NCBI GenBank assembly: GCA_950295325.1
Contig: OX485804.1
Coordinates: forward strand, 21,454,001 to 21,518,000
Source of the DNA: Polytrichum commune
Taxonomy: Eukaryota; Streptophyta; Polytrichopsida; Polytrichales; Polytrichaceae
DNA length: 64,000 bases
Direction of reading: 5' to 3'
Shown here: piece by piece, positions 10,481 through 30,365 of the stretch
How the letters are laid out: each line of letters opens with the position of its first letter
How positions within the stretch are numbered: the first letter of the stretch is position 1
Position numbers and translations under genes: made by a program
The notes under the pieces: model-generated
The model's input: only the letters and a program-made list of their open reading frames with translations
Databases searched by the model: none
What the model was told of the DNA's origin: nothing

Positions 10481-11654
10481 ACACAAGGGCGAGCGTTGCA
10501 TCAACTTCCAAGTAGCAACAGTCTGTTGTGAATGTATTGTTGAAACTGTTTTTTGTCCTTAATAGCATACCTGAACAGTTGTACAGTACAGCTCAAGATT
10601 CTGTAATATTTTGTTTTTTGGGAATAGAAACAAACCAAAAGACCTGTAGGAGCATCAAGGGGTAACTTTGGAAACCTGGGTCAAGTTTATCCTTGATGAC
10701 AGGAACATAGCATGAAAGTGCAGACAGTAATTTCCTCACCAGTGGTTCACTGAATGTGAGCCTGTTGATATTATTGTATAGAGTTTGTCACTGCCCAATT
10801 GTTCACTGGGCATAAACTCGTCTTTTTAAATTTGAAGGCAGCAGTTCTCCATCAGGAAGAGCCTCAAGTTTTTGTTCCTCGCAACTTTCTTTATTTCTTA
10901 CCACCATCTGTATCATGTGCAAGCAATTGAATATTCTTGGGCTTACCCTTGATGCCCTTGGGTTTGTGGTTGTGTGTTGATAAAAAATCAGAATGATGAG
11001 ATTCTTCTTTGCATGTGTGCATCCCAATTGTTAGATTAATCTGTAAGTTAGCAATTTGCATCTGGAACACTATATTCGTTATTTGGAGACTTTGGAAAGT
11101 CTCAAAATAAATTGGACCCATAGTTTCGGATGCGAATATTGTGAACGTAGGGAACATCGGGAACATCGGGAACAATTACATCATAATGTTTTAGAAATCC
11201 ATATGCGATGGAACTATATATATTACTAAATATAGTAAGTATGGGGATGAGAATCAAATCACACAATTACACGATTATTTGTTTTTTTGGGATTGTGTTG
11301 AACAAAAGTAATGAATCCATAAATAGCCATCTAATTTTATATGTATTGACTCTTGGAATCGCATCCGAAACATAAAGCTCTTGGCCTATTGTGGTTGAAT
11401 TGAATGGCACATCCCAACTGCAACAATACTTAAAATAAATTGACAATGTTAATTGGAATTTACAAATTAACATAATATGCAATATTAAATAGTTTGGATT
11501 CCACATCCGTAAATATAAACATATACTAGAAAACATTTGATAGCGCATGGGAAGGGTGATTCCACATCCGTAAATCAATACAGTCATGCAATGATATTAT
11601 ACTAGTTGTAATCTATAAAATGTGTCTAATATAATATTCAACCCCAATGTCATA
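10481..11654. other. Gene-free stretch with degenerate CCGTAA half-sites
   Basis: No gene is supported. Short phrases resembling one arm of the palindrome found further right occur here: GATTCCACATCCGTAAAT near 11498 and 11559, and a TTTCGGATGCGAA phrase near 11122. They are not paired into palindromes. Confidence 0.45.
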
Positions 11655-11923
11655 TACCGTAACACAATAGCTGGTTCGTCCCCTGGCGAACGAATATTTA
11701 TTTATTTTGAAAAAATAAGGTTCGCCTCTCAAAAAACTGAATTTCTCAATTTTCATTTTTAGCAAAAAAATCAGTAAAAATGACCTTAAATGGCTTAGAA
11801 ACACCAAAAGATTGCAAAAATTAATTAATTTTATTTTCGTTTTTCTATCTTCATAATTTCATAATTTTTACGTTTTTTATTTTTAGAATTATTTTTGAAC
11901 GAACCAGCTATGGTACTACGGTA
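11655..11923. repeat. 269 bp MITE-like element E, left copy
   Basis: Reverse-complement comparison with 40941-41210 shows one difference by eye, a run of 7 versus 8 A. The element has its own ~25 bp terminal inverted repeats, TACCGTAACACAATAGCTGG at one end and TACCGTAGTACCATAGCTGG (reverse complement) at the other. If TA is taken as a target duplication, the element proper starts CCGTA, as in Tc1/mariner-type MITEs. It is AT-rich, non-coding and ends 55 bp from the stop codon of the DUF7869-type gene. Confidence 0.85.
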
Positions 11924-11978
11924 TTAATGACAAACAAATACACATTTCAACTAACTTTGGTCCCGACGTACATCAATA

Positions 11979-14900
11979 TCATTCCCTCTCTTCATCTTCA
12001 TCTTCAACTTCATTTCCATTTTCAAGATCGTTTTCCGCAGCTGCGATACGTGCCAAGTTGTCTTTGGCAAAATCTATATGTTTTTGCGGGATGGTCATTG
12101 TCTCTGATTTCGAACCTTTGCGTGGTTTCCAAGCACAAAGTATGGTATCTGTGTTTATCCAAACCGGTTCGTATGATGAGTCCATTGTCCATTTGAAACC
12201 TTTTTTGGTGTCCCACCCTAAATATGTCCGGAGCACATTTTGATCTTTGGTGCTTGGACGGCAATATTCCACCTCAATTTGGCGAAAATTTGGACTAGTT
12301 GAAACAAAGTTTGGTGATGACAATGCTTTCACCAACCAAATTGGCTTGGGATGCTCCTCATCCCCAGCACGTACGAGCAGCAAATAACCTTCGTGGCAAT
12401 CAACCCCAACACGAAACGACGGCTCCGGTTGATTGCGAGCAGGGCCAACATAATGATCGTCCGCAGCGAACTCTTCACGAACGTCCCCATTGTTGAACAA
12501 CATGGCCTCAGATTCCACGACTGTCACTCGACTTTGTGGCCAAAACCCTTGTGTCAAACATGAATGTGTATCAACATCGGGTGCTATCAATGCCGTGCGA
12601 ATGCGATCCCAATACGCAATCAATGGTTCGTGGGTATCCCTAACACGTCTTGTGATGTCTTCCTCGCACAATTCTTTCCAATACTCAATGAATCCAGATA
12701 TACCTTTGATGATTTCTGGCCCATTCCTCATGGGGTTGGGTGTGCAAGGCTTCGGCTCACCATCAAGTAGCACACATTTGCCATCTTCGTTTTTGCGCCA
12801 AATGAGTATCCCTTCCTCCGGACCCCAATTCGGGGAAGTGCACAAAACTTTGAATTGCATGGCGGGCAGACCATCGTCACGCATATAAAATCGGAATTGT
12901 TGAGCCTTGGTGTGGCCCACTAGTCGGTCAGACCCCTTAAGAATGAATGGTTTTATAAACCGTTTGAAATCGGGCACTTCTTCAATCAAATGTGGAATGA
13001 CTGGCACATTGTCCAAATCCATATATGATTTCATGAGAAGAGGAATTGTCGGAAAATCCTCCTCGTGCAACTTCATACTCCAACGTCCAAATGAAGCGTC
13101 GATGTCATCGTGCGTGTGGCCAACCATCAAAAAAGACACAAACACTTCTTTGAAAATGCCCTTGGCTACCAGCAATGACCAGAAACAAAACACGTATCGA
13201 CATTTGTTATCTTTGGCACAATTGTCAAGTTGCACGTGTAGAGTTCGAGGCAAAGGTTTAGCAAGAACGGGTTGTTCAGGCAGTTCTTGAAGTGAAGATA
13301 GACAAACTTCCTTCCCCTCTAGCACAGCCTCATAAATCGGAGTTGTTCCACATCCAACAAAAAGAGCACGCGAGGATGATGTTGGCGGACTCTCAAGATC
13401 TCGTAGAAGTTTTGCAAAAGACCCTACGGTATGATTGGCGTCGCCTGGATAGAAATCCAAGCCATAATGTGCATACTTGACGTCCACATGGCCATGTGCA
13501 ATCATACCTGAATTAAGACATACAAATGATAAGTACATTCCAATATCATATATATGAAGGAAATATGATATTGCCGCAAGTAAGGAACAACCATGCACAG
13601 ACGAGTTACGGATGCGCATCCGTAACTCTTAAAAATGAATATGTGGGCACGCCAAAAAAATGAAAACCAACGAACCTGTGACAGATATTGGCAACTTGAA
13701 ATATCCATCTGTGGCCTTTATTTTCCGCGCATAACAAGGGCAAGCGGTCTTCGCATGGTCCATTTTGTCATGAATGATTGTCAACACCTCGTTCGGCCTC
13801 ATTATCGATAAGGCGCGATTCTTGTAGTAGTCTTGACGGTGTGCCTCCTGGGTTGTTGACATGCTCAATGTATTTCTGTTGATGTCTGGTGTGCAACTCG
13901 GTCCCTATTGGATGTGCGTCTCGAAGGCCTTTATATTTTTCACAAGTAGAACACCTAGCAAACTTATCCCCGGGTCTCTTCGTAATGTATTCAGCAAACT
14001 GTTGATTCTTGATCACACTCAATTTTGACAACGAAATCGGCCCACATCCAACATTTTCACCAACTTCATTAACATCCACGAGTATGTTCTTCCATTTTGT
14101 CCCTATGGATAAAACCATCTGAACAACCTTTTCCCCCGACGGCAAAGTGCGTGTCTTGTGTGGCATCACATCCGCTAATGGCATAATGATGGTTGACAGA
14201 GTTGCAGCCGCTTGGAGTGTTGCCTCCCTGGGCTTCTTTGTACCTGAGTTGCCATGAAACCGAGAACACCTTCCTTGCAGCGAGTAGTTCCGGAACCTAT
14301 AAAAATCTGCCTTTGAAACGGCATGAATAATGTACCATGCCCGGCAACAAACTTCTATATTTTCCAAGGTCACAACCTTACAACCTCCGGCATCCAAGTG
14401 CATGTTGCGATGTACTTCAAGTTTCTTGGCAGACCGCATACGAAAGTCGGCAAGCCACATCTCTTGCCTCAAAGATTTGATTTTGCCACGGGGAAATAGT
14501 TGGCAGCACTTCTTCGCACAACAATCCTTTGTGGCTACGGACCTAATAGATGTGTCTCCCAATGTATGATCTCGACGACGCTGCGTGGGTTCACGAGGCA
14601 CACGAACGGAATCATATTTACGACGACCATGTCTGGGACGCATTGTGGCGAACAAAGACTGTTGCAGTTGCTCAAATCGGCGGGATTGATCCCACAAGCT
14701 CACACCATCGTGATGAACACTTCGCAAAGGCCATCGACGGAGAGAGAACCTCCAACCAAGAGGCACTTCCGATGGAAGTAAGGAGTTCAATATGCACACC
14801 CCAACATCGTCCTCCCCGAGGGGTTTTGCATCAATACAATCCGTTGGATTCGAGTTCCTACAAACACCGTTGGCCATGGGAACGGCACATGCATTGAGTA

Positions 14901-15081
14901 GTACAACATCAAGATCAACCCACTGCTCCCGCGAATAACCCTCACATGGTGGTATGATTTCATCATCTGCATCGGCCACACCATTTGTAGCTTCCTGTTC
15001 CACGACATCTTCAAACTCGCTAGCATAGCTTAACGGTTCCGAGGAGAAATCGGACGCACTTTCACCGATGTCGGAATCCAT
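11979..15081 (-). CDS. DUF7869-type protein, probable transposase relative, two coding exons, one frameshift
   Basis: Coding exons run 15081-13676 and 13507-11979. The 168 bp intron has a GTTCGT donor and a TTCAG acceptor. The joined product would be about 977 residues, but only if one base in the GGG run at 13850-13852 is skipped, because the frame changes there between the YIEHVNN and QEAHRQDYY segments. The C-terminal half carries what I recall as the DUF7869 signature: an HDKMDHAK segment (Asp438/Asp441), QLDNC..NK (Asp563) and GHTHDDID (Asp602-605). The spaced acidic residues suggest an RNase H-like transposase fold; this is inference. The N-terminal half has an acidic start, a Cys/Lys-rich patch (KDCCAKKCC) and a CSTCEKYK pair of cysteines. 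The tail is acidic (EDEDEERE). The start ATG is five bases inside a TTGTAG acceptor, so the leader is spliced. A 24 bp palindrome sits in the intron. It is broken as read; a homopolymer assembly error is equally possible. Confidence 0.8.
13508..13675 (-). other. Intron of DUF7869-type gene with 24 bp palindrome
   Basis: The GT-AG intron joins a phase-1 junction (codon split G|GT) so that ISVT-GMIAHG reads through, which fits family sequences as I recall them. Positions 13604-13627 form a perfect palindrome with core TTACGGATGCGCATCCGTAA. Compared with the main motif, both arms carry the matching change (GGAC to GGAT, and GTCC to ATCC), so symmetry is kept. Confidence 0.8.
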
Positions 15082-15085
15082 GGCC

Positions 15086-16200
15086 ACTACAAGAGAGCCA
15101 AATGAAGAATGAGATAAAATATAAGCAGTGTATGTTTACGGACACTCGTCCGCAAATCATTATCTGATAAGAGATGTCAGGGTTAGGCGCAAACGTCTTG
15201 GCAAATTAAACAATGTATGTTTACGGACGCCCGTCCGTAAACATCCCTATGTCAAATGATAATTGTGTCCAAAACAAATAGGGTTGCAAGGAACCAAGAA
15301 GTCCTAGCCCCATTTACATTTACACTAAATTTTACCTCCTGGCCTTACCAGTAATGTATTTGAATGTGTACCAACGGTTTGTCTGTTTACGGACGCGCGT
15401 CCGTAAACATACCTTTACCTCATTACTAAACAGATGCAAGAGGTTTGTATGTTTACGGACGCGCGTCCGTAAACCTACCTTTACCTCATTACTAGAACAG
15501 ATGCAAGAGGTTTGTATGTTTACGGACGCGTGTCCGAAAACCTACCTTTACCTCATTACTAGAACAGATGCAAAAGGTTCAAGATTTACGGACGCGCGTC
15601 CGTAAATATTCATCAGAACAAATATGCATACTATCAAAACAGATAATAATTCACAGCCCACATTGTAGATGACATACCACCATGTGACACCAAAAGGATG
15701 CATGTTTACGGACGCGCGTCCGTAAACCTACTTGTAAATGCTCAATGAGCCAATGAAAATAGATTGAGATACTCAATGATGCAACGAGCCACTGAGAGAT
15801 TCAATAAGATATGAGATATTCAATAAGCAAATAAGTCAAGAGATGTAATGTTTACGGACGCGCGTCTGTAAAGTTCCGTAATTTGCGGCGTCATAATAGG
15901 ACACTTGAAGCGTGAACAATACCTGTCAGAAATAGAATCCATCACATTCAGAGATCCAGATAGTGCAAATCGAATATGGGTTTAGGGTATAATAGGTTCA
16001 TTGCAATAGGATCTATACCTGCGCGAAACAAGTATCCACCACACTACAAGGGTCTCAAGAGCGCAACCCACATCTGAGATGCAAAAAGAGTCCCTTAGTG
16101 GGGGGATTTCCCTTAAGTACTCGTCGTCTTCCCTTGGATCCTTTCTTCAGCATAGGATACTAGCCGCCAACTCTTTCATAAAAACAAAAACCTAATATTC
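15086..16200 (-). promoter_or_regulatory. Leader, leader intron and promoter region of DUF7869-type gene
   Basis: Read on the minus strand, a plausible non-coding first exon ends at 16019 (CGCGCAG followed by GTATAG). A second possible donor lies near 15930 (CTGACAG followed by GTATTG). The leader intron ends at the TTGTAG acceptor before 15086. It contains eight or more palindrome copies between 15135 and 15872. A telo-box-like TTTAGGG lies near 15980. The transcription start is not defined by sequence. Confidence 0.45.
15135..15872. repeat. Palindrome cluster 1, with a ~66 bp tandem array
   Basis: Copies of TTACGGACGCGCGTCCGTAA, perfect or mutated, are centred near 15146, 15230, 15396, 15463, 15530, 15596, 15716 and 15862. 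The four from 15384 to 15607 are 66-67 bp apart and share the spacer phrase CCTCATTACTAGAACAGATG. The copy at 15384-15409 is a perfect 26 bp palindrome with TG..CA ends; those at 15451, 15584 and 15704 are perfect over 24 bp. Mutated copies differ mostly at CpG sites. Confidence 0.95.
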
Positions 16201-19200
16201 CAACATGGAGAATGCCAGCCTTGCAATGGAATGTGTATTCATGGCGGCCAACATGCATTTGACCATGACTCCACATAATGACAAAGCAAAAGGCATCTAT
16301 ATATTTATGGTGTACAACAAAGCAAGTTGGTTAATATTATATGAGCAATAAACATTGTTGAGGGGGGGTTTATATTAATGGAGTACCCAATATTAAGAGT
16401 TCATTGTAGAATTTGTGGACAAAAAATTATAGAATCGTATAAAAAATCCACCACAACAACATTTGTAGTCCATGGACTATAAAAATATATGTGCTTCGGA
16501 AATAATCTAGCAACTATTTAATTGTTTTGCATACAATCTTATGATATTAGAATATCATGTTCTCTCCTATCATCTTGCATTTAATATTGTAATACAATCG
16601 GCCACCACCCTACCATCCAACCCTTTTAATTTCCCCACCTACACAAAAAATTATTAATACATACAGAAACTTTGATTTCCGTGAGGCCATGAAAGTAGAA
16701 CATCTATGGACCTAGGTAGGATTTAGGGTTTGGTGGGTTTAGGGTTTGGTTGCAAGCATTCTTAGTTATTGAACAACACCAATTATTTTGCAAGATGGAG
16801 TAAGTGGTGAAAAAGTATATGACATTGAACAAATATTCATGAAACTGTCAATAACAATTCTAATTGCCATGTATAAAATCTTCATTCGGTATCCTTTAAT
16901 GAGAGCCATAAAACTTGGGTTATGTAACCCTAACTTTCATTTTTTTGAATCTTACTTTTTTTGGGTGAAATGTACCCCTTACATGCAAGTAGAAGATTTA
17001 GCCGGGACTTGTTATCCTTTGATGTGACCCCAAGTTTAAAATGAAATGAAGGGATACAAATATGGAAACAATTAAGGCTTCAAAATATTGAAGATCATTA
17101 TAATATTTATGTTCCAAACCGGCTTTAGCCATTTGCTCTTAACATATACTTTTGATGAAAGGTTTTGAAGATCTTATATATTAATTGGTATTCTTTAATG
17201 GAGTACTTAACACATCAATCCATGTCACCATGGAAACAAAACTCTAGAATAAAAAACAGTTTGCTACTACTTGATGTAGGTAATATACAAGCTCGTGGAA
17301 GGATTCAATGAATCCCGATGGTTGTTTAATGTACAAGAGGGATGTAAATTCAATACATACCCTTGCGTGCACTTTTAATACAAGCTTACTAGACCTATGT
17401 TCAAAGGGATTGAATTAATTCGTAATGTTGTGCAAGATAATATCATAGGCATATGACTTCAACCCTATTAGATGGTATGAAATAAGAGCTTATAACTCCA
17501 AACAAATACAAACATTTTCAAGAACTCTTGACACAAGATTCCAAATAGTGTAGTTGGATTGACATCCCCCACTACCTCATTTTATCATTAAAACTCTCAA
17601 ATGAGAGGCAAGCAATTTGGCCTCATGATTACAAGAAGTAGGGTAGTTGAATGCTCACCCTAGGTTCTAGACTTGCATTCATGCTAAACCCCTTAAACCC
17701 TAAACCCTCAACCCATAGTATTATGTCGTTCTTCTCAAAATATGGTGAAATTTCTTCCAAGCCTCGCACTTCGAGGTTATGTTATTGATACCGGCTTAGG
17801 ATGACCTCAAGTGACGGACGAGAGTTATGTTTTCCAAGAATTAAAGAGATTAACATGCAAATTCATCCAAACCGAACATGAATGTCATTATTGTTCACCC
17901 TCTTTAGTATGACAAGTGTGAGAAACACAAAAAGGTCATGTTATCTAGGTGTCGTCTTCTCATTCATATGACAAGTGGCGTAAAGTTGTCATATTATTGA
18001 GGGAATATGAAATTATCATAATAAAAATGAGCGCAAAGATATATATACAACAAGTTTAATAGGCAATATAGATGATATGAAATAAGAGCTAATAACTCCA
18101 AACAAATACAAATATTTTCAAAGACTCTTGATAGAGGAGTCCAAAGAGTGGCATATGTCGATGTTTGTATTTACAAAATGCTTAATCTTTAAATTTTTTT
18201 TATTGATGTAATTTAATTGTGGACAATGATATACTATCATACAATAAATAGTTGTAGCATATCGTAATTCGTAATAATAAGCGATAGTTAGTGTACTAGT
18301 CATTTAAAGTCCACTTACCTTCATATTGCAACAACTCCACAAAAAAATGTTACACTTGAGTTACTCAACCTCATATTGTCCTATAGTTTCAATACCGAAA
18401 ACTTCCCTAGGCTTATCATTGTGAACTTAATAAACATTAGGATTTGTATTGTAGAATGGGTTTGGTTAGGGTATTAATAAATGAAAGGTGACTAATATGA
18501 CTCCAGGTCATGCATCTTCACCTTATGTTAGTTGGGCTTTGTCATAAATATGATGCTACATTGAAGGACTAATATCAAACAATCTATCATGTGGAGTTAT
18601 GAAGTAATATGGTGTGAGTTGGGTTAGCACCATAGTCGGTTGGCAGAACAACAATTCCCAAATAAACCTACAAATGAAAATGTGAAATATATAAATATTT
18701 ATGTCGACATGGAAAAAATGAAATAAGGGTGATATTTAGGTTTCAGACCAAGAGCCTGCCACTATTTAATGAAAATAAGGGTTTCAAGAGATTATTTTAA
18801 ACAAAGACTATATTCGAGTACAAGGTACAGAACCCAATTGTCACTGGTGCTATGTTTTTACAATTTGTATCTTACATGCTATGTTACTACCATGTCCCTT
18901 ATCCTTTTGTCATTGTTAAATTTTAATCATATAATTAATGGTACACATTATATGTCACTTCCACTTATTACCATTAATAGTTGAAATTTAGTGTTTGAGT
19001 TCACAGTTAAAAGTACCTTACTTTCATAGGGTTAGTGATATTTAGTGTAATTGGATGTTGCGACTGGATGATGGTGACATGTCAATTAATACTTATATGC
19101 ATATGATATTGAGCAAGAAGTGTGTATAATGGTTGTTGAGTTGGTGGATGCCGTTTTGGGAATCAATAATGCAGAAGGCTTTGATTTTAATGTTAATTTG

Positions 19201-19619
19201 CATTTGGTTCATTTGGATGATGTTTTTTCACGTACAATATTAAAGCGTCAACGTTATGCATCATTGTTGTCTAATTTTTTATTAGACAACTTGTTTCACT
19301 TAGGTAGGCAACACTAGACTCAGATCACTGGACTCTTATTTCAAGAATTATTGAGAACGCTTGTATTTGTTTGAAGTTATACGTTATTATTTCATACAAT
19401 ATATGTAATAATTGCTTACATCCGTTGTGTGTGTTTTGAAGTTCATATTTCTTTTGTTTTTTTATTCACTCAATAGTACGACAATTTTACAGCGTTTGTC
19501 ATATTAACGAGAAGACAACATGTCGATAATACGACATTTTTTGTGATTTCCAAACGTGTCTTACTAAAGAGGGAGAGGTGTGCCACATACCTCTCCAATA
19601 TGAACCTATAGGGTTCAGC
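16201..19619. other. Gene-free region between the two divergent genes
   Basis: No coding region is supported in about 3.4 kb. AAACCCT-type motifs occur at 16718-16753 and 17691-17716. An ~85 bp direct repeat (GATATGAAATAAGAGCT.. and AACTCCAAACAAATACAAA) lies at 17471-17555 and 18071-18155. Repeated ATTTAGTG/TTTAGTGT phrases near 18980-19045 resemble decayed MITE ends. No palindrome copies are present. Confidence 0.5.
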
Positions 19620-19966
19620 CACGTGGCGATGGGGTGCGGGGTGGATGGGACGTTGGGAGTCGGGGCGTTTGGGGGGCTCCTCTTGAGTACTTAAGGGTTT
19701 TAGGGTTTCATTCGCCCATTTTCACCCTCTCATTTCTCCGCCTCCCCTCTCTCGCTCTCCTTCCTCACATTCTTCTCACGCTCCTCTCTTGCTTCTCTAG
19801 GGTTTGTTGTTGTCACCCTAAACCCTCTCCTCCCCGCGTTCCTCTTGTTGTTGGCGCTTCTCTCCGCGCTCCTCTCCTCTTGCTGTTGGCACTCCTCTCC
19901 TCTCCGCGCTCCTCTTGTTGGTGGCGTTGCTCCTCTTGCTGTTGGCGCTCCTGGTCACCTCACAAG
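19620..19966 (+). promoter_or_regulatory. Promoter and CT-rich leader exon of the ParB-like gene
   Basis: A telo-box-like AGGGTTTTAGGGTTT at 19694-19708 is followed by a strongly CT-rich stretch (about 19725-19965), typical of plant 5' leaders. A plausible splice donor, CACAAG followed by GTTGTT, lies at 19966/19967. The next acceptor is directly before the ATG at 21476, so this would be a non-coding first exon. The assignment is inferred from base composition and splice sites. Confidence 0.55.
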
Positions 19967-20720
19967 GTTGTTTGTTGTTTGTGTTTGTGTTTGTTCTTGT
20001 GCTTGCTGGTTTGCTTTGCTTTGCTTTGTGCTTGTGCTTGCTGGTTTGCTTTGCTTTGCTTTGTGCTTGTGCTTGCTGGTTTGCTTTGCTTTGCTTTGTG
20101 CTTGTGCTTTGCTTTGCTTTTGCTTTGCTTTGCTTTGCTTGTGCTTTCTTGGCTTGTGCTTTACTTTGATTTGCTTTGCTTTGCTGATTTGCTTTGCTTT
20201 GCTGATTTGCTTTGCTTTGCTTTGCATTGCTTGTGCTTGTTGGTTGTGCTTGCTTGTGTTTTGTTGTGCTGGCTTGGTTGCTTGTTTGATTGTTGGCCTC
20301 TTGCATAATGACATAGGTTGCTTGTTTGATTGTGTTTTAGTTAATTTCTTGCTTTGACTTGCTTGTTTAATTGTTTGATTGCCTGCTGCTTGTGTCATTG
20401 TTTGTGCTTGCTAGCTGGTTGTGCTTGCTTGTGCTTACTTGTGATTGTTTTTTAATCTTTTGTTTATGTGCTTGCTTGTGATTGTTTTTTCTCTCTTTTG
20501 CTTGTGTGCTTGCTTGCTTACAGTTGTTTGATTTGTTTGTGCTTGCTGCTTGGCTTTGCTTTGCTTGCTAGCGTGGTTGTTTGTTTACTTGCTGGCCTCT
20601 TGCATAAGTACATAGATTGCTTGTTTGATTGTGTTTTAGTTTATTTCTTGTTTTTTTACTTGCTGGTTTGATTGTTTGATTGCTTGGTTTTTTTTGTTCT
20701 TTGCTGGTTTGCTTGTATTT
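19967..20720. repeat. TTTGC/CTTG minisatellite in the leader intron
   Basis: Pyrimidine-rich low-complexity sequence made of TTTGC, TTTGTGCTTG and TTGCTGG units. At 20002-20112 a ~45 bp higher-order unit (TGCTTGTGCTTGCTGGTTTG) repeats three times. Long open frames occur on both strands only because the repeat lacks stop codons. Confidence 0.85.
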
Positions 20721-20797
20721 TGCATCATATACAAAACCACCTTCCTGAAAATCCGGAACCCTCTCAACAAGGACCAGATTAACCAATGTAGGGCTTG

Positions 20798-20900
20798 AAG
20801 TTTACGGACGCGCGTCCGTAAACTTTGACGCACCAGGTGGGTGAAGCATGCAACATATATCCAGAACTTACGGACGCGCGTCCGTAAGTTCTGGATATAT
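20798..20900. repeat. Palindrome pair, including a 46 bp perfect palindrome
   Basis: 20798-20825 is a perfect 28 bp palindrome (AAG...CTT around the core). 20855-20900 is perfect over 46 bp: core TTACGGACGCGCGTCCGTAA with 13-base arms ATATATCCAGAAC and GTTCTGGATATAT. As single-stranded DNA or RNA either would form a near loopless hairpin. Confidence 0.95.
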
Positions 20901-20943
20901 TTAAAAAACAATATTATTACTAATGGACAGTATATTTTCCTAA

Positions 20944-21234
20944 TTTACGGGCGCGCGTCCGTAAACTAGTGACATCCAAGTAAACCCCACTCCTAGTTTA
21001 CGGACGCGCGTCCGTAAACTAGTGACATCCGAGGAAACCAAATTCGTAGTTTACGGACGCGCGTCCGTAAACTAGTGACATCCGAGTAAACCCCATTCCT
21101 AGTTTACGGACGCGCGTCCGTAAACTAGTGACATCCAAGTAAACCCCATTCCTAGTTTCCGGACGCACGTCCGTAAATTAGTGCTAACCCCGTAAACCCA
21201 ACTACTAGTTTAAGGACGTGCGTTCGTAAACTAG
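20944..21234. repeat. Palindrome cluster 2: six copies at exact 53 bp spacing
   Basis: Palindrome centres fall near 20955, 21008, 21061, 21114, 21167 and 21220, each 53 bp apart. The second and fourth copies are perfect over 30 bp (CTAG...CTAG) and the third over 28 bp. The first has one mismatch, and the last two are decayed. Spacers are near-identical (GTGACATCCGAGTAAACCCC), so this is tandem amplification and not CRISPR. It lies in the leader intron of the ParB-like gene. Confidence 0.95.
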
Positions 21235-21297
21235 AACTATCTTATTAAATCTTATCTTTGTTCATAGTTGAGATTCTCATCCCCAACTACCCGTTGA

Positions 21298-21433
21298 TAG
21301 TTTACGGATGTGCGTCCATAAACTACATGTGAAATTTCGTATTGACATATGCAAAATCTTTTCGGATAGTTCATTCTGACATTATAATTCAAAACAACCT
21401 ATGGAAAGTTTACGGACGTGCGTCCGTAAACTT
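21298..21433. repeat. Two decayed palindrome copies before the ParB-like start
   Basis: 21298-21325 (TAG...CTA) and 21406-21433 (AAG...CTT) keep the TTTACGGA/TAAA arms but have CpG-to-TpG/CpA changes at the centre (GACGTGCGTC). The second lies 43 bp upstream of the ATG exon. Confidence 0.9.
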
Positions 21434-21475
21434 GACATTGATCATGATACTAAGCATTGTTTTTTGCATTTGCAG

Positions 21476-24400
21476 ATGGCATCTACAAAAAGACCTGCAA
21501 TTGACCAGACATTTGAGTTTCTTCCGCCTCCACTTCCACCCGCCATCAAAGATATAAGCCACAACGATCACTACAAGCCAGTCGAAGACACAGTAGACAA
21601 CTGGACAGTTTACGTAGAGAAACTTGAGAATGACACATTCGTACTTAGATTTGGGTATCAAATGAATACCAAAGATATAGACGTAGATAAATGGGTTAGA
21701 GTTAAAAATTGGTCAGTAGAGTGTGCAGTGGCCCAAGGTGACTATGTCGTCATAGATCTTGAAAAACAAGATGACAGAGTCACAATTCTTCTTCATGAGC
21801 ACAGACATCCATTCCACAAGGCTGAATGCGAAAATGGCAGCCCGGATGCGGGTTGCTTCAATCTTGCAACTGAATTCCAAGACTATGCATGCAATGCACC
21901 TTGGACGGGTAAGCGGCTTGGAAGACTCCTCAACAATGTCACGAGAGTGAATGGGGCAGTCCTGGAGTCCAGAAAGGGGAAAAGGAAGAAGAAAGTCGTT
22001 TCTGAACGACAACCGCGTGTTCCACAGACAGTCCCGGAAGGACCAAGACCGTCCCAAAGTGGAGCATCGAGAGGGAGCAGACCATCCAGTAAACGCTCCC
22101 ATTCACAGATGGAGTCATCTGGACTTACCGAAGGTCCAGATGTCAGCTCCACCCTTACTGTCGCACCACTTCTAAAGAAAGGAGAACGCCCGAACTCTGA
22201 TCTATCAACAAAAATTCAACAAGAGTTCGACGAAAAAACGAAAGCCTGCTGGCCAATGGGCAGGTATTTCACATTTGACGTGGATGTTTATAAATGTCAC
22301 CAGGGCACCGAGAGTATGAATACTCGGGTGCAAGAAGAGAGCGGGGTCTGGTGGCAGATGAACAACATCATGAACAACCCGAAAGCTGACCGGCAGACCA
22401 TATGTGTGACCCCAAAGGATCCAATCGTGGAGGTCACACCAGAACATTGGTCAATTATTAAGCAAGGGGAATTCTACATCGTGGACGGCCAGCATAGCGT
22501 GGAAGCGGCAAAAGCTCTCCTCGCAGACGATAATTGGAAGAGCCCTCTGAAACCCACAATCCGATATTGGAAGGCACTTCTCGTGCATTCAGAGGACTCC
22601 AATCAGCTCATCGCCATATCTGCCTTCCTCAACCAGACAAACAAAATCAAAGCGTTTGAGGCGTCATGGGCAGCCAACATCGTGGCTGGTAGGACCTTGT
22701 GGGAGGAGCACGGTTGTCCACCAAAAGAGAGGGACAACGCAGTCGTCAAGAATCCCAAATGGCAGGTAATATTCCCAAATGAATTTACGGACGCGCGTCC
22801 GTAAATTCTCCTTCACTCTTTCTGTAAACTTTTCCTTTATTCTTTGTGTGCTCCAAGTTTACGGACACGCGTCCGTAAACTAGACGGTTCTCATTCCATT
22901 TTTTGATCTCATTTCAACAACTCATTTGTTTCTCTACTTGCAGGCATTCAGCAGTGCGATTGTGACGAAGTTCTCAAGCATTGACATGAAGCAAAGCGGC
23001 ATGAAGACAGTGCAAGATCTGAAGGGCGAACTGAAGCTCATCACTTGGTCGGGTAGAACCTGGGCTATCTGGATGCGCGTCTTCCATGCACACAGCAACG
23101 GAGAACTCATCAACCTTGAGACGGAGAAGAAGTACAAAGAGGACCTGAAGATTAAGGTGCCTCCAATCCTCAGAGAGTTCTTCCGTCCCTTCCAAGGGTT
23201 GCTCGATGCCGAGCTTTGCAAGGCGGCAGAACACCTTCTTAAGGAGACTCCGAGAAGGACAGCGCCGTATCCAAAAATCTTCCTCAAACGACCAAGGTTT
23301 ATGAAGCCTTCAACGTACCATATTAAGGAATGGTGCGAATACAGGAAGAAGAAGACATTGGCTATGAGGGAGATAGGCAAATTGGTACCCGCCTACAACC
23401 TTACGGATGTAGATGGTGACATTGTGTGGGACAACTGGAGGGGATTGAAAATAGCATACCACATCAATGGCGTCTCAATGAAGGCATTGATAAGAGCAGC
23501 ATCTCCGTTCTTGGCCCAGCGCTCAAGGAAGAACGAGAAGAAAGGTTCTATCGACGAAAGGGAGACAACTTTATATAAACACTTCCTCGATAGAAAGAAG
23601 AATGCCAAATTCGAGGGTGTCGCGAGGTTTTGCGCTGTGACATCACAATTCAAGTTCGGCAAGTGGGACACCCATGCTTCGCGGGCCACTGTGAGAGATG
23701 ACCCCCGGGGTTGTCCTTTTGCTATCTTTGATTTCCGTGCATTTCCAAATTCTTGGAAACAACCTCCTCCGGGGACCCCTTTCTACGACAGCTTCTTGAA
23801 ATCTTTCAAGAGCTTTCGGTCCCCTGCACTTCTGGAGCCAAACGTGTGGCTGTGGATTGTGGACCAAGAGAGATCCGCAGCGGTCGTCGACCTATACAAC
23901 TCGACGATGGATCTCGAATACAATATCTTCCACAGCACATACGTCCCCGCGAAGACGGAAGGCATCGCCGTCATCGAAGAAGCAAGGGGGGTAAAGCAGG
24001 TCGGCGCTATATGTCTCTATTTCTTGACACGGAAGTCTTCGCCAAGTGGGCGTTTGCCTGTAAAGGCGAAGAGCGTGTTCAAGAAAATTTACCAGTTGCC
24101 GCCTCCACACCCCAAGGAGCTAATGGACGAGGCGATGTTCGCAATCTGCCCAGCAACCGAGCTCCGAATGGACTTTTACATAGGAGTATTGAAAGCTGTG
24201 ACTGTGATGAGTGAGACAGTGTACAACGTCTTTGGGGGGGACCAAATTTGTTTATGCGGCATTGGTAAGTACTTAAAAAAACTTTCATGCCTCCACCTGA
24301 TGCAACTTTATGGCCGCGCGACCGTAAAGTTTAACCACCTAGTTCATTTCAACTTTGCGGCCGCGCTGCAGTGCATATTTACGGCCGCGCGGCCGTAAAG

Positions 24401-25940
24401 TTATCAAACCTAACCCAGTGTGCATTTTACGGACGCACGTCCGTAAAATGCACACTGCATCATGTTTGTATGTCCATCTTCCCCGTCAATTCAATCTTGA
24501 TACCAACAATCCACTAACTTTTTTTATTTGGTGCAGATGCTTGGGTTGCAGGTTAACTCGTTTGTGGGGGTTGGCGACATGGATGAGTGCAAAGATCACA
24601 GGAAGCTTGCAGAGAAAATGGATGTCAATGACTTCTTGGATATCATTACCCCACATCCTGTTGTTCCTCTTGCCTCTAGAGAGGAGCCTTCTCATGCAGG
24701 CGGGTGGGGCAGCGATGGAGACGATGATCCAATGTCTCCAAGGGGACAGCCCTCCAGGCAGGAAGACTTGCGCGGTCTTGCTCGTCATCCAGTGTATCGC
24801 GTGGCGTATCTCCTGGGTGAAGACGACATGGATGCAGAGGAGGCGCAGCCCAACGTCACTCCAATTCGGGTGCCTCATAATATGCCTAGTCTATCACCCT
24901 TTGGGACTCCCACTTCTCGAGTTGGGCTTCCTTCCACTGCGGGGCCATCTCGTGCTGCAAGGCTTATGGCGGAGAGGGATGCGGACCTTGCTGCAGAAAC
25001 CGGATGCACGGCGTCCTCTGGTGGGGGAGAGCCCAGTGAGCAGGCGGCGCTCCCGCCCATGGAAGGTAGAGATATGCTAGAGTTGATATCGAGGCCCGAT
25101 ATCGACTCCTACCGTGCAAGCCGGCGGCAGAGGAACAAGACGCCTTACAACGAATACCCCGAAGGCGCCGTCTTGGAACTCTCAGATGAAGACGAGGATG
25201 AGGTGAGGCTGTACGCTTCCATCTCCGCCTTGCCTTCTGAGCCAGGCAAGGTGAAGAGAGAGCCCATGTCCGTCTCCGAGCTGGACGAGAAGATGGAGAA
25301 GAGGATGAAGGAAGAGCTTGACATGCGGCTCCGGGAGGCCAACGAAGAGCACGCCAGGAAGATGGCCGCCATCCAAGCTGAGATGGAGCAAGCTAGGTTG
25401 GAGTCTGCTCGGAGGCACGCCGACCTCATGGCTCAAAATCAACAATTCTTGGCTCAAAGCCAACAATTCATGAGCATGATGGCAAGCTTGCAGGCAAGAC
25501 CCCAGGTGGTGTATGCAGCGCCCGAGCCCGCCATGTCCGTGCCCCCCGTTCTGGTGCGCACTCCTTCTAGCAGCCACACGGTGTACATACCGGAGCACAC
25601 CTATACGGCCCCCGCGTTGGTTGTCCCGCCCCCTCCCCAGGTTGCTGCCGCTCCAGAGCCCTCCCCTCCCGCCATAGGAGACGATGAAGATGTCAACATG
25701 GGCGACGCCCCCCTCGCCGATGAAGATGTACATATGCGGGGGGGCCAAGACTCCTCGCATGAGGATCAACCTTTCGTCGGCACGCAAGCGTCGCAAGCAG
25801 GTGGAGCCGATTTGTTGGTGGTGGAAGACACGCAGGGCGAATTTACGGACGCGCGTCCAGAACCTGGCCCCGCAACTGGGCCTGGTGAGGGAGGCACTGC
25901 CGGCGAGGAACTCACCGCTGAAGAGGTAATCAACCTTTGA
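21476..25940 (+). CDS. ParB-like / degenerate DNA-methyltransferase-like protein, three coding exons, one frameshift
   Basis: Exons are 21476-22765, 22944-24264 and 24537-25940. All junctions are GT-AG, and the ATG follows directly on a TTTGCAG acceptor. The product would be about 1337 residues only if one G of the seven at 24234-24240 is skipped; with six G the exon 2/3 junction reads VYNVFGGTKF..YAAL. Exon 1 has a basic NLS-like patch (RKGKRKKK, residue 166) and a ParB/sulfiredoxin-like motif, DGQHSVEAAK (Asp337-His340). Exon 2 resembles class-beta N4/N6 DNA methyltransferases: a FAIFDFRAF segment stands where DPPY would be expected (near residue 693), then LEPNVWLWIVDQE, then an F-x-G-G SAM-motif-like site near residue 860. 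The missing PP suggests it is catalytically dead. Exon 3 is acidic, then a Glu/Arg-rich coiled coil (about 25280-25490), then Pro-rich. ParB-methyltransferase fusions are familiar from phages and bacteria, as I recall. No HTH is seen. The function is unknown; a mobile-element gene is likely. Confidence 0.7.
22766..22943 (+). other. Intron 1 of the ParB-like gene with two palindromes
   Basis: The donor is CAG followed by GTAATA and the acceptor is CTTGCAG. It holds a perfect 28 bp palindrome at 22781-22808 (GAA...TTC around the core) starting 15 bp after the donor. A one-mismatch copy lies at 22857-22880. The centres are 74 bp apart. Splicing is phase 0. Confidence 0.85.
24265..24536 (+). other. 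Intron 2 of the ParB-like gene with variant palindromes
   Basis: The donor is GTAAGT and the acceptor is GGTGCAG. 24378-24399 is a perfect palindrome with a changed core, TTACGGCCGCGCGGCCGTAA (A to C in one arm matched by T to G in the other). 24304-24331 is the same variant with two mismatched pairs, and a weak relic lies at about 24351-24372. 24416-24457 is a 42 bp palindrome, perfect apart from its central CA pair, with arms CAGTGTGCATT / AATGCACACTG around the main core. Confidence 0.9.
25841..25862 (+). repeat. Palindrome relic inside coding exon 3
   Basis: The left arm and centre of the motif are intact (ATTTACGGACGCGCGTCC) but the right arm is lost. It lies within the open frame of the ParB-like gene and is read as FTDARP. 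It is the only copy inside accepted coding sequence. Confidence 0.8.
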
Positions 25941-25953
25941 GCATGCCTCCCTC

Positions 25954-25975
25954 TTTACGGACGCGCGTCCGTAAG
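25954..25975. repeat. Palindrome 14 bp after the ParB-like stop codon
   Basis: The core TTACGGACGCGCGTCCGTAA is perfect over 20 bp and lies between the ParB-like gene and the FCP1-like gene. It is the rightmost intact copy in the window. Confidence 0.95.
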
Positions 25976-26258
25976 TTCCCAGTCAGCCAGCTTTCGTGGC
26001 GTGTGCATATTTTCGAGTTCGAATCTCGACTTCGCCCGCGGCGGCGGATCCAATTTTGCTAGTGTAGGCTCAATTAATCTTAGGAGAGACCTTTAGTGAC
26101 AATGTAAATTATTCGCGAAATGTATATCACCAAACACATTAATACAATTTTTTGAACTGCATAGTTCTTCGGATACTTGTTGCCTCGCATTTCTTTGTTG
26201 CGTTTTTGCATGCTTGTCATTTGGTTTTCCTGGGTAGTGCCATTCACCTAGGTAGTAT

Positions 26259-27868
26259 GTGTCATCACAGGGTCCGTCGGAGATATGTCGCCACCCCGCC
26301 GAAAGACCAAGCCATATTATGAGGAAAAACTTCATAATATTTGACCTCAATGGCGTGCTTTGTCAATCCACACATATCTCCAATAGTGCGTCCAAGGGTC
26401 CCTACCGTACTCCACAAGACATGGATTACGGCGGGCGCTTCGATACACTAATTAACAAGAAGGTTGTGCGCGTCCGGCCCGGCTTGAGGTGCTTCCTTCG
26501 TGAGGTCCTCGGCTTGGCCCATGTCATCATCTGGAGCTCCATGCTGATGGACAACACGAAGGCCGTCGTCAGTTTCCTTTTCCGAGAACTCGCAATGCCG
26601 TGCTTGCTTCTCGGTCAAGAACATTGCGATGACCTTTATGACCGTAGCGGCAACATTGTACCTAAGGTCGGAGGAGGCCGCGGACCTCAATTCCTTAAGG
26701 TGTTGAGGAAGAACCTCTGGGTGGGCGTCCCAATGTTGGAGGGGGTCCCCCAAGGTTATTGGCCCACTCCGGAGAACACGCTCCTCATTGACGACAGCCC
26801 GGCGAAGAGCGTTCTCAACCCCCCGGGCAACTGCATTTTCCCGAACCCTTGGGAGGGCGATAGAAACGACAACTTCCTAGAGTTAGAATTAAGACCCTAC
26901 ATTAGAAGGCTTGCCCATCACTCCGGAAGTGTCCCGGATTTTGTCCTCTCAAATCGTATTGGCAATAGACCTCTAGGCCCAAGAGATACAAAATTTAGGA
27001 GGTTGTACGGCTTTGCTGAACTCAATAAATTGGTATGAGAACTTTGATACTTTTTGGCTCCGTACTTGGACTCTCCATGTTTATATCTAACATTTCTCTC
27101 CTTATTTTGTAAATGTATTTTTGTGCCTTAGTTGCCTCACCAAGCATCCCAAAGTCTCGGACATGGCATGTCTACATCTCAGCCGGGCCCCAGCTCCCCT
27201 TCCATTGGTGTGACCGACGTTTCAATGCCTTCACTATTTCAATTTTCGGCCGTCGATGCCGCCTTTGCCGTGGATTACTCCAAAGACTCGGGGTTCGAAG
27301 ACGGAGTTGTCGATAGCCCTCCTCCAAAGGTTGCAAAGCTCAATTACGCTCTACCCCCATCCCCATCTCCCCTCCGCAATGAGAAGCACGTTCGAAACCC
27401 ACGGTCGACCAGGCGTCTTTGCATGGATGAACCCCACATTGATGTCCCGGCCTTTACGAACGTCCCGGTTGTGCTTGTGTCTACTCCCCTCGATGTCCCT
27501 GAAGATCAAACCGCCGCCCCGAAGGCCAAGGTGCCCCACTATTGGCATTCTCAAGTTTTTCGTTCATGATGTCCGCATATTAATTTAGTGCATTTCAAAT
27601 TCTTGGGTTTTTCGGACTTACATCCGTAACTTATACTAACCCACGTCGTTATATATATTTATGGTCATTGTTTCAGACCCCAATATACATGGATGTGGGA
27701 CGTGCATCCTCCACTCCGTCATTGGATAGGCGAACACTGAAGACTGCAACTTGCGAGTCTGATCGTTGTTTGGCCCTACGAAAGAGTGCAAGACGTTCGG
27801 TTTCCCAAACACGTTCGTATTCCACTTATTCGGTAGGGGGTCGGCCAATATGGGAAAATGGCATATAG
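26259..27868 (+). CDS. FCP1/NIF-like HAD phosphatase, three exons
   Basis: Exons are 26259-27032, 27132-27530 and 27677-27868, all phase 0 with GT-AG introns (donors GTATGA and GTGCCC, the second weaker), giving about 454 residues. The first exon is an FCP1-homology (CTD-phosphatase-like, HAD) domain. Motif I is IIFDLNGVL (Asp29), with Asn in place of the second Asp, as in a plant FCP1-like subgroup I recall. RPGLRCFL and IIWSS (motif II) follow near 73-94, and LLIDDSP (Asp178/179) is the C-terminal metal site. The C-terminal region is Ser/Pro-rich with basic patches (RKSARRS). The ATG is uncertain: a basic alternative start in another frame (MSPPRRKTKP at 26285) would need one frameshift. 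The TAG at 27866 is followed by 44 further sense codons in the same frame. It lies 319 bp after the ParB-like gene and may belong to the same element. The substrate is unknown. Confidence 0.7.
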
Positions 27869-28003
27869 TCGAGGGCTGGGAATGGGAATAAACAAGGTTA
27901 CAGTCGCGGAGCCAAGATATTTAGAGCCATGGACGCCATGAAAGCAAAAGAAAAAGAAACGGCCGCAAAGGCTAATAATAGTATTTCAAAAACAAAAGAG
28001 TGA
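27869..28003 (+). pseudogene. In-frame extension of the FCP1-like gene beyond a TAG
   Basis: After the TAG at 27866-27868 the frame stays open for 44 codons to a TGA at 28001. It is rich in Lys, Ala and Glu (KAKEKETAAKANN), unlike random AT-rich 3' sequence. It probably represents the original C-terminal helix, cut off by a recent nonsense change. Alternatively it is simply 3' UTR. Confidence 0.45.
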
Positions 28004-30365
28004 CGCCTATTCATGGTCCAAATGTATAGGCTATATTAAAATACATATAGATGTGGATTTGTGTTTCTAGGGCTTTGGCCTAATAGTGGATATTCCACTT
28101 GCATTTTGTATTTTGACCCTCTTCAATGAATATGATATCCATTTCCTATATGCAAATGTTGTAATTGTCCCATTTCCCTATTTTTATATGTGTAATTACA
28201 TGCATTTGAGTTTCATATTTGTTTCCATATTGGGAACATAGCATATTTGTAGTGTATTCATTCCTATAAATGTGAAAGCCACGTCCTTAAATAGTCTCAA
28301 AATTAACAAAAAGTCTCCAAATAACGAATATAGTGTTCTGGGCTACAAAAAACAACTCCACAACTTTGCCAAGGTTGTTGCAGAGGCTCGAAACACTCAC
28401 CACACTTGAAATGTATTTGGATGGTCTTGCAGATGTGTCTATTGAGAATTAGTTGGTTTAAAACCATCTTGATATACTTTTAAGTCCCATTAGCCTTTTC
28501 GGTTTCCTAAACTTTTAAACCAATTTCATTTCATAGCAACTTCACTTACGAATAACTTAGATCGAGAAAGGTGCACATAGACTGCTCTCTCAACTACGAT
28601 TGTGAATTGCACTTGAAGCAATCATTGACTTCACCCCAATGCAAAACCTTCATTGCTTACCGCACCTCAAAACATAGACTCTTTCCATTGAAATCGGCCA
28701 ATGGTTGACTATTCTAATATTTGAAAATAACATATCATGCCACCTCTGCTCTTACAATGTAAATTAGTGGAAAATGAGGCACACTTTGTGTTGGAGTGCC
28801 ACCTCTCTAAGGAGCATTATATATAGATTTCCTTATTTTTAGATATGTTATTAGGCCATCTCAACTCTTTCTTTTGGTTGAACCACCAAGTTGATATTAA
28901 CTCAGCCTTATTCTCATATAGGCACTCTGGAACTCTAGGGAATTAGCCTTTTAATCACCATGTTGATGTATTTTTTTGTCCCTTTTAAGCCTTTCGGCTT
29001 CTTGGACCTTGACATCAATTTCTTTTGATCTCATCTCATAGAACCTTTCGAATACTAAACACAATCTTGGTGGGTGGGGCACCACAAAGTTGTTGAGATT
29101 TAGCATAAGGGGGGAATAAATTATATAGGCAAGGTGGTATATTCTGTTTTTCCTTAACCCCTAAAGAACCATTAGACCATATTTAGCTTTTTGAACTTTT
29201 TGATTAAGTCCACATACTTTGTTTCAAAGCCACATATTGATCTACAAATGTTAGGGGGATCAATCTTGCAGGGTTTTATTTTGGGGTCAAATTTAAAATC
29301 ATTTGATAGTGTTTTGCTAATTTTTACCTATCAAAAACATGGTGACATTTGGGAATTTTGGACACACTTTTAGACACTTTGGAGGCATTTTCACATCGAG
29401 GCCAGTAAACAGGGTTAGGTGCAATCATAACTAAAATGGATCCAAAACCTTGGAAAAACATGACTTTTTGTAAGTATATGCATCTTCTTATCTACTACTT
29501 GGATTCATCTAATTGAGAAATTTGTTTTTTATGGAATAAATTGCGCAAAGAAAACCATATTCAACATGTGCCCAAAGCAAAGCCTAAGGAACCACAGTGA
29601 ATAAACTCCAAAAGTAAAATTTCTTTTTTGTAGATGGGCTAAATTCACATGCAAAGGTCTAAAAGGAAAAAACCAACCTTAAAAATAATAATACAACCAT
29701 CAAGAAGGCAACACCAACCATATACTAGACTTAAACACCTCCTGGATTATTGCATCATTGGGATTTCACGACCTAATCTTGAATGATATAAGAACAAAAT
29801 ATCAATGTCCTCAATGCTATTACATCCAATCCATATGGGTGATTTGAGAAAAATCCTAAACTGACACCCACTTTAATGTCCCCATTTGAAAACGTGATTT
29901 GAAAACATTTTATAAATTCTACTTTGCTCTACACGTGGTCCTACAGGGTTAAGCGATGATAGAGGCCCTCCGGATTGTATTGACATTTGAACCTAGAAGG
30001 GTTTATATATTATGAGCACGTGGTCCATTTCACCATAGCACTCTTATTTAAAATATTCGCTCTTGACTACAAGCCTTGCCATATACCAACCAAGTATAGG
30101 TGTCCCATTGAGAAGTGTGACCACATAAGGCCCACATTTGTAAGACTAAGAACCAATTGGTTTTGCAATCATTTAAAGCATGCATGATCATACAATACAA
30201 AAATCTCATAATTTGGCATAACTTGCGTTTTGCAGACATGGTGCAATTTGCGAGAAGATTATGTGTTGTTGGGACCGCAATTTGATGTGTAACTAGATAG
30301 TGTTGAGAATCAAGAATGAGCTAAAGTGGCAACCAGAATGCCCCTCTTACATTATAACATTACTA
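28004..30365. other. Gene-free stretch
   Basis: AT-rich sequence without supported genes. Two paragraphs about 450 bp apart share a theme (CTTGATATACTTTTAAGTCCC.. near 28470 and TGATGTATTTTTTTGTCCC.. near 28963, each followed by TTTCGG or TTTCGGCTT), suggesting an old duplicated repeat. 30060-30150 (GCCTTGCCATATACCA.. and TATAGGTGTCCCATT) has diverged relatives near 31060 and 35080. Confidence 0.45.

Follow-up and report, generated by a model that had tools for sequence, protein, structure and literature searches.

Private palindrome arrays in DUF7869 transposons of Polytrichum commune suggest a self-recognition code read by an element-encoded ParB-fold protein

Introduction

Why would a palindrome of 20 bp recur more than two dozen times within one island of genes and nowhere else nearby? 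The question is raised by a stretch of 64,000 nucleotides from contig OX485804.1 of Polytrichum commune (assembly GCA_950295325.1, positions 21,454,001 to 21,518,000 of the forward strand), referred to here as the window and numbered from its first base, in which the palindrome TTACGGACGCGCGTCCGTAA is confined to a group of genes encoding a DUF7869 protein and a ParB-like protein. We show that this island is a DNA transposon with terminal inverted repeats (TIR), and that related transposon families bear different palindromes at corresponding positions, two points that the first-pass annotation of the window had missed. Taken together, the family-private palindromes suggest a self-recognition code that is read by a protein encoded in the element itself.

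The palindrome island is a transposon

At up to three mismatches, the window holds 26 copies of the palindrome, all between 13606 and 25974 (11 perfect, 6 with one mismatch, 5 with two and 4 with three), and none in the remainder; one further copy, degenerate at 5 mismatches, is found at 27610. The annotation had counted about 27 copies in 12.4 kb and no intact one in the other ∼51 kb, and both figures stand. So does its judgement that the array is far beyond chance, as 100 dinucleotide shuffles of the window gave 0 matches, and that it does not represent an ordinary miniature inverted-repeat transposable element (MITE): the shared unit is only ∼20 bp long and has no interior, and the flanks of the copies, inspected by eye, consist of shared tandem units and lack the separate direct duplications expected of a MITE. 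Many of the copies are carried by such tandem units, which are 53–97 bp long. Centred on one copy (20868–20887, plus strand) is a perfect palindrome of 46 bp, which reaches far beyond the shared core. The exact 20-mer had 0 matches in a viral contig collection and 0 in a genome contig collection, and a scan of the window against Rfam gave no match at gathering scores.

The island lies within a TIR DNA transposon of 17,272 bp that starts with AACACTATATTCG, is bounded by perfect inverted termini and is flanked on either side by the target-site duplication CTGG (Table 1). Target duplications of 4 bp were found in 4 of the 4 copies checked, the other three (paired termini picked from the genome matches to the terminus) being flanked by ATTA, ATTG and ATTT. 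At up to three mismatches, the terminus has 517 + 494 matches across the 408-Mb genome. That genome also has 4 matches to the LEAFY SAM domain, against 0 in 14 control genomes, in keeping with a land plant or close relative as host. The element also stands out in base composition, with a CpG observed/expected ratio that is mostly 0.8–1.2 over 11–28 kb, lower at 16–21 kb, and 0.1–0.7 outside. Among four solitary matches to the terminus, two (L026, L027) resemble the phosphatase end and one (L029) the DUF7869 end of larger elements, and the fourth (L028) matched none of the element sequences compared.

Within the element, the palindromes are distributed unevenly. According to exons and splice signals predicted from sequence, the leader intron of the DUF7869 gene holds 8 copies and its internal intron 1, and the leader before the ParB-like gene holds 10, followed by 2 and 3 in the first and second internal introns of that gene; the copy at 25843, with 2 mismatches, lies in frame within the coding exon of open reading frame (ORF) 3. 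The 4.9-kb stretch between the two leaders and the DNA beside the terminal repeats are free of palindromes, and none of the 26 sites comes closer than 2.3 kb to either end of the element.

Other DUF7869 families bear palindromes of their own at corresponding positions

DUF7869 has 1,492 first-look candidates in the genome, of which 150 were scored; from these, 20 loci were chosen for their differing type, not at random. Arrays are present in 17 of the 20, and they sort into families A to E, with a variant C2, each with a private inverted repeat that has arms of 9–11 bp and a centre of 2 bp. The arms are TTACGGACG in family A, to which the window element belongs and where a mostly CG centre results in a perfect palindrome, TTACGAACG in B, CCCACGGGTG in C, CCCACGGGCG in C2 (a single locus, L036), GTTTGGGTCG in D and GGGTGAGGCA in E. 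The palindrome had been described as CpG-dense, but this is not a property common to all families: the arms of family E contain no CpG, and CpG density as the key property was rejected for this reason.

When each family's arms were searched at up to two mismatches in the elements of all five families, C elements contained only C sites (16), D elements only D sites (47) and E elements only E sites (28). The A elements contained 55 A sites and the B elements 36 B sites, with cross-matching between the two families because their arms are one base pair apart per arm; the C and C2 arms, the latter outside the matrix, likewise differ by one base pair per arm and cross-match at two mismatches. As controls, 40 scrambled arms gave 0 matches and the window flanks (46,758 bp) also 0, and at up to four mismatches one stretch of a D element also matches A. 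In families B and D the central dinucleotide occurs in 10 kinds each while the arms are held, as would be expected for two half-sites. At up to one mismatch, the genome contains 6,190 B sites, 988 C sites and 11,977 D sites.

Despite these differences, the positions of the sites correspond. In one D locus (L003 + L022) and one C locus (L012 + L024 + L031) the gene order is as in A, and sites are found in the DUF7869 leader, the ParB leader, both internal introns and the 3′ end of ORF3. A second, near-identical C copy was also identified (L001 + L021), and family C has additional sites within the ORF3 frame (L031:2809) and on the DUF7869 side (L001:1217 and 2336). In family B (L007 and L020, with L030 from another copy) the sites are in both leaders, in the gap that separates ORF2 from ORF3, within ORF3 and shortly beyond its end, and none was seen between the ParB exon and ORF2. 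Family E has a ParB-like gene, and its arrays adjoin both genes. Near the ORF3 C-terminus, an in-frame site occurs in A (25843–25862, encoding GEFTDARPEP) and in D (L022:7311–7332, encoding GEFGSADPNP), so that a similar position of the ORF3 protein is encoded by two unrelated site sequences.

The termini behave differently. Those of families A, B, D, E and F (one end only being seen in B, D, E and F) start with AACAC, and families A, B and D end alike in AACACTATATTCGTTA, although the palindromes of A and D are unrelated.

The three loci without an array fall into two groups. One (L008) is a family-E copy with a deletion from the DUF7869 gene into the ParB gene. The other two (L011, L013) make up family F, which is known from these two loci, L013 having been read over 7.6 kb only. 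The extended F locus (L011 + L032, 16.6 kb) has a relative of ORF2 (E-value 6e-18 with a family-E query), and its one palindrome is unrelated. With A, C, D and E queries, tblastn found no ParB exon in this locus, and it has no [DN]GQH motif. This suggests that the ParB exon is absent from family F, and no more than suggests it, because the family-C ParB exon was likewise missed by A or D queries.

Genome-wide, the family-A 20-mer has 2,695 sites at up to two mismatches, a number that includes family-B sites with a CG centre. Among the matches listed, which cover family A on one contig (C1), 59 of 60 distinct zero-mismatch sites lie at most 10 kb from a scored ParB-like match (98 of 1,046 candidates were scored), a distance within which 0.36% of C1 falls. 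These sites form 8 clusters on C1, 7 of them near ParB-like matches and the eighth being one solitary site. The link to DUF7869 and ParB-like genes for which the annotation had proposed a genome search is thus borne out in the part checked; an even scatter with no link to these genes is not what the listed sites show.

The element encodes a putative transposase and a fast-diverging protein with a predicted ParB fold

The genes of the element do not diverge evenly. Between A and B, with the two halves of B taken from two different copies, identity is 83% for the C-terminal and 71% for the N-terminal DUF7869 exon and 55–61% for the phosphatase (partial), and falls to 51% for ORF2 (partial), 44% for the ParB-like exon and 31% for ORF3 (partial). 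Between A and D, the corresponding values are 64% and 59% for the two DUF7869 exons, 40% for the phosphatase, 36% for ORF2, 33% for ParB and 30% for ORF3. By these sequence comparisons, the divergent gene set evolves faster than the DUF7869 protein. Relatives of the ParB-like exon were found by tblastn in B and D and, weakly, in E (E-value 6e-4); in family C the exon was missed by tblastn from A or D and is placed by gene position and an NGQH motif only, while its ORF2 neighbour was found with a D query (E-value 1e-12). For each of families A to E, one locus has a [DN]GQH motif where the ParB exon lies, and the motif is in none of three family-F stretches.

The structure of the ParB-like exon was modelled on an alignment of 5 rows. 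The predicted local distance difference test (pLDDT) score reaches 60–88 over about residues 261–380, and structural comparison with VIA-align ranked Noc first (Z 10.2, root-mean-square deviation 2.0, 96 residues), close to ParB with cytidine diphosphate (Z 10.1). Further matches were to ParB, KorB, PadC, serine-kinase and sulfiredoxin chains, and the next unrelated chain scored Z 3.2. Since the ParB-CTPase/sulfiredoxin fold is common to all top chains, this predicted fold is credible for the first exon of the divergent gene, although it does not by itself imply a cytidine triphosphate (CTP) clamp. The label ParB-like, used in the annotation, is therefore supported in part, by the predicted structure and the short motif but not by the Pfam and NCBIfam ParB models, and as no curated ParB model matched we refer to a ParB-fold protein and not to ParB. 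Searches with PDB sequence profiles gave nothing credible for either the ParB-like protein (best E-value 0.38) or DUF7869 (best E-value 0.084).

Two candidate assignments for ORF2 were set aside. A profile match to 9l08, a cytochrome c555 trimer (1.8e-05), is judged spurious, its best stretch covering only 34 profile positions (65–98), and the by-eye impression of a degenerate methyltransferase is not claimed here, as Pfam and NCBIfam gave no methyltransferase match.

For DUF7869, the family-C protein was modelled (692 aa, pLDDT 49.6). In this low-confidence model the strand order and the conserved acidic positions are RNase H-like, and VIA-align placed retroviral integrase cores among the top rows, with Z up to 7.3, below 8, and similar values for actin-like and other RNase H-like chains; Foldseek found nothing significant. 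We therefore only tentatively regard the modelled DUF7869 protein as an RNase H-fold transposase. The family-C protein (L002:2929–5004) also contains the acidic motifs HDKMD, QxDNC and GHTHEDxD in an RNase H-like order. With their many candidates in this genome, DUF7869 proteins look like a transposase group; a search of the open-access literature found no paper on DUF7869.

The palindromes as candidate operators of the element's own protein

The reading that we favour, and hold to be somewhat more probable than all others combined, is that the palindromes serve each family as operators of its own, bound by the ParB-fold protein that the element encodes. A dimer of this protein, made from the ParB-like exon and ORF2, would recognise the two inverted half-sites and load at the leader and intron arrays of the element genes, and, once loaded, would control their expression, most likely by holding chromatin open against host silencing or, alternatively, by autoregulation. 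Specificity would drift among families, each family mainly serving its own copies. The reading draws on the diagonal site matrix, the corresponding positions, the common terminus of A, B and D and the free centre in B and D, as well as on the faster divergence of the genes concerned, the ParB/Noc fold match, the clustering of 59 out of 60 sites among the matches listed, and the [DN]GQH motif in A to E but not F. Of the three roles that the annotation had put forward for the palindrome, binding by an encoded protein is thereby the best supported.

Several observations weigh against it. The deletion copy of family E (L008) retains a ParB stretch yet has no array. The centre of the site, free in two families, is constrained in A (CG in 45 of 59), C (AA/TT in 16 of 17) and E (CA/TA in 27 of 28). 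On the side of the protein, the mean pLDDT of the ParB-like model is 46, Foldseek alone found nothing significant for it (best E-value 0.38), and Pfam and NCBIfam matched no ParB or DGQHR model in the ParB-like exons tested; the binder could also be another protein of the element. The uneven divergence may fit a fast-changing partner of the sites, and would equally fit any fast-evolving gene. Finally, the symmetry of the A sites continues into flanks that differ, a feature not called for if only a sequence is recognised, and 25 of the 26 window sites are in probably transcribed noncoding sequence (predicted leaders, introns or just beyond the ORF3 stop), which also suits a role in RNA.

These last two points are the strength of the explanation that survives best after operators, namely that the palindromes act in RNA, where hairpins formed by leader and internal introns would influence splicing or the generation of small RNAs. 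In family A, the flanks pair beyond the core in 89 of 162 cells, against 61.3 in shuffled sequences, a value reached by none of 2000 shuffles, and 12 of 13 two-sided arm changes in families A to D keep pairing, which by a rough estimate is above independence. Flank pairing is, however, not significant in B, C, D and E (P 0.125, 0.10, 0.22 and 0.82), one-sided arm changes in A to D outnumber two-sided ones by 101 to 13, and changes that keep a wobble pair are not favoured over those that break pairing (38 vs 28, P 0.27), all arm-change counts being inflated by related copies. Moreover, the arm sequence is held over scattered copies, which hairpins alone would not need. We thus consider a role in RNA unlikely, and read the sequence pattern as that of a DNA site for a dimer plus some symmetry-keeping process.

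In a further explanation the palindromes would be passive, spread without function by tandem duplication, hairpin-templated copying or gene conversion. The many copies within tandem units fit this explanation, as do the symmetric flank extension in A, which resembles the templated correction of imperfect palindromes, and the concerted change within families, which fits homogenisation. On the other hand, corresponding positions, in separate introns and an exon, are kept despite unrelated site sequences, the 2-bp centre varies in B and D while the arms hold, and single sites beyond the arrays match the family arm too. To us, this renders passive spread quite unlikely.

Slightly less probable still is that transposition requires the palindromes as internal binding sites of the transposase. 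A precedent of this kind is TnpA of the CACTA/Spm elements, which is encoded by the element and has many short sites there, near the ends. The palindromes of the window are likewise many and found only inside the element, and genome sites among the matches listed cluster at element genes. However, A and D share a terminus and have DUF7869 C-terminal exons that are 64% identical, with unrelated palindromes; this makes the palindromes unlikely as an end signal for the transposase, the transposition role that had been considered in the annotation. Unlike the subterminal motifs of CACTA/Spm, the window sites are in leaders and introns, well away from the ends, and the family-E deletion copy, possibly an immobile one, has no arrays.

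That a host protein binds the sites to sense or silence the element is highly improbable: plant transposon repeats often draw host silencing, and CpG transitions account for 31 of the 67 substitutions in A sites, a pattern that methylation of the copies would produce, but every family would require its own reader, the element would be expected to shed such sites, and family-C copies that are 99–99.98% identical, and so probably young, keep many of them.

Operators for the ParB-fold protein may be taken one step further, to a eukaryotic transposon superfamily with a clamp like that of ParB-parS, which loads at private arrays and spreads over its own element to keep it expressed, protein and sites having co-diverged into at least five mutually private codes in one genome. 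This extension is doubtful, and we put it forward as a speculation.

Relation to known systems

We regard the VANC/VANDAL system of Arabidopsis as the closest functional parallel. As described in PMC5735166, VANC proteins carry DUF1985/DUF287, and the motif of VANC21 has 9 bases, YAGTATTAY, and is non-palindromic. As in the Polytrichum elements, the motifs are short, are placed in introns and other noncoding DNA of a transposon, some of them in tandem, and differ among related families in which the transposase is conserved and a second protein divergent; they also occur in upstream regions and are gained and lost in tandem (PMC5735166). The differences lie in the inverted repeats, the predicted ParB fold and the putative DUF7869 transposase of the elements described here. 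A Pfam scan of the element proteins gave no match to the VANC domain (DUF1985), and the likeness is functional only.

A second likeness is to bacterial VirB at virS and KorB at OB, where a ParB-fold protein acts on palindromic sites and controls genes at a distance (PMC10770331, PMC11790492). In these accounts, VirB is termed a transcriptional antisilencer and KorB a long-range regulator, and both are CTP clamps at palindromes (PMC10770331, PMC11790492). Their clamps are demonstrated, whereas in the moss-borne element under study the fold of one domain is predicted.

Among eukaryotic mobile elements, the nearest precedent is Sola1-1_Ec32, a giant transposon of the alga Ectocarpus, in which a protein with a ParB-like domain and a DNA methyltransferase is encoded on the strand opposite the transposase (PMC12477816). 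The authors propose that proteins of this kind bind the element encoding them and modify it, and note by citation that ParB-like-methyltransferase proteins also occur in green and red algae (PMC12477816). The likeness extends to a ParB-like domain encoded opposite the transposase in a large eukaryotic transposon; here, in contrast, there is no methyltransferase match, and the putative transposase is DUF7869 and not Sola1. The account of Sola1-1_Ec32 in that paper, as far as it is available to us, describes no cognate site array (PMC12477816). In the portion of the open-access literature on ParB and eukaryotic transposons that our search covered, no private palindrome arrays or cognate sites differing between families were found, and in a 2025 survey of ParB folds (PMC12704722) the strings “transpos” and “plant” are absent from the main text accessible to us. 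What appears to be new relative to the algal precedent, judging from the sequences, is thus a cognate site array that differs between families.

We also considered kinship with DndB of Salmonella, described as an autoregulator that binds TACG-N10-CGTA and has a DGQHR motif (PMC4507180). The A and B sites fit this pattern, and the window protein has DGQH where DndB has DGQHR. As the C, D and E sites do not fit, and no DGQHR model was matched, this is probably coincidence.

Should the favoured reading be true, the control of a transposon by a factor specific to itself, as proposed for VANC, would be met again in another protein fold, unrelated to the first, and ParB-fold proteins could be regulators in mobile elements of eukaryotes. 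Within a single genome, the families supply a natural series of site codes whose changes run in step over the whole element: one base pair per arm separates A from B and C from C2, and A and D differ completely, with the terminus constant in A, B and D.

Features of the element and its surroundings

The coordinates of the element and its genes are collected in Table 1. In this copy, the junction between ORF2 and ORF3 is out of phase by simple splicing and is therefore uncertain.

Table 1. Features of the family-A element in the window.
Feature	Position	Strand	Basis and remarks
Left target-site duplication, CTGG	11062..11065		Read at element end
Whole element, TIR DNA transposon	11066..28337		17,272 bp; 28-bp inverted termini, CTGG duplication, CpG observed/expected ratio, dispersed copies with paired termini
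Left terminal inverted repeat, 5′-AACACTATATTCGTTA...	11066..11093	+	Perfect, 28 bp
DUF7869 exon, C-terminal part; probable RNase H-fold transposase core (tentative)	11979..13507	-	Pfam PF25273, E-value 1e-39
Predicted internal intron of DUF7869 gene	13508..13675	-	Splice signals; 1 palindrome (13606)
N-terminal coding exon of DUF7869 gene	13676..15081	-	Open frame; 71% identical in B, 59% in D
Predicted leader intron of DUF7869 gene	15087..15922	-	Splice signals, site search; 8 palindromes (15136-15871)
Leader region of ParB-like gene	20802..21475	+	10 palindromes; 3′ splice signal ahead of ATG; 5′ border approximate
ParB-like exon; ParB/Noc-type domain at about residues 264-393, motif VDGQH	21476..22765	+	Predicted structure, relatives
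Intron 1	22766..22943	+	Predicted splicing; 2 palindromes (22785, 22859)
ORF2 exon, fold unassigned	22944..24264	+	51% identical to B (partial), 36% to D; relative in C
Intron 2	24265..24536	+	Predicted splicing; 3 palindromes (24308, 24379, 24427)
ORF3 exon	24537..25940	+	Open frame; in-frame palindrome at 25843 (GEFTDARPEP); family-D counterpart GEFGSADPNP
Perfect palindrome right after ORF3 stop codon	25955..25974		Site search
NIF/FCP1-like phosphatase ORF	26256..27038	+	Pfam PF03031, E-value 1.2e-13; relatives in B, C, D
ORF5, no assigned function	27132..27569	+	Open frame; relative at right ends of L026, L027
Right terminal inverted repeat	28310..28337	-	Perfect, 28 bp
Right target-site duplication, CTGG	28338..28341		Read at element end

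Four further observations concern the element and its surroundings. The NIF/FCP1-like ORF, which resembles phosphatases of the RNA polymerase II C-terminal domain, is retained in families A to D, the copies being 33–61% identical to that of the window. Before the ParB leader array, 1 kb of imperfect repeats rich in CTTTG/CTTG (19700–20700) contains long chance open frames on both strands. In a family-B copy, an unidentified open frame of 469 aa (L020:3886–5295) is found at the expected place of the ParB gene and is possibly a nested insertion. Outside the element, positions 46001–48000 show a strong local GC skew of 0.43.

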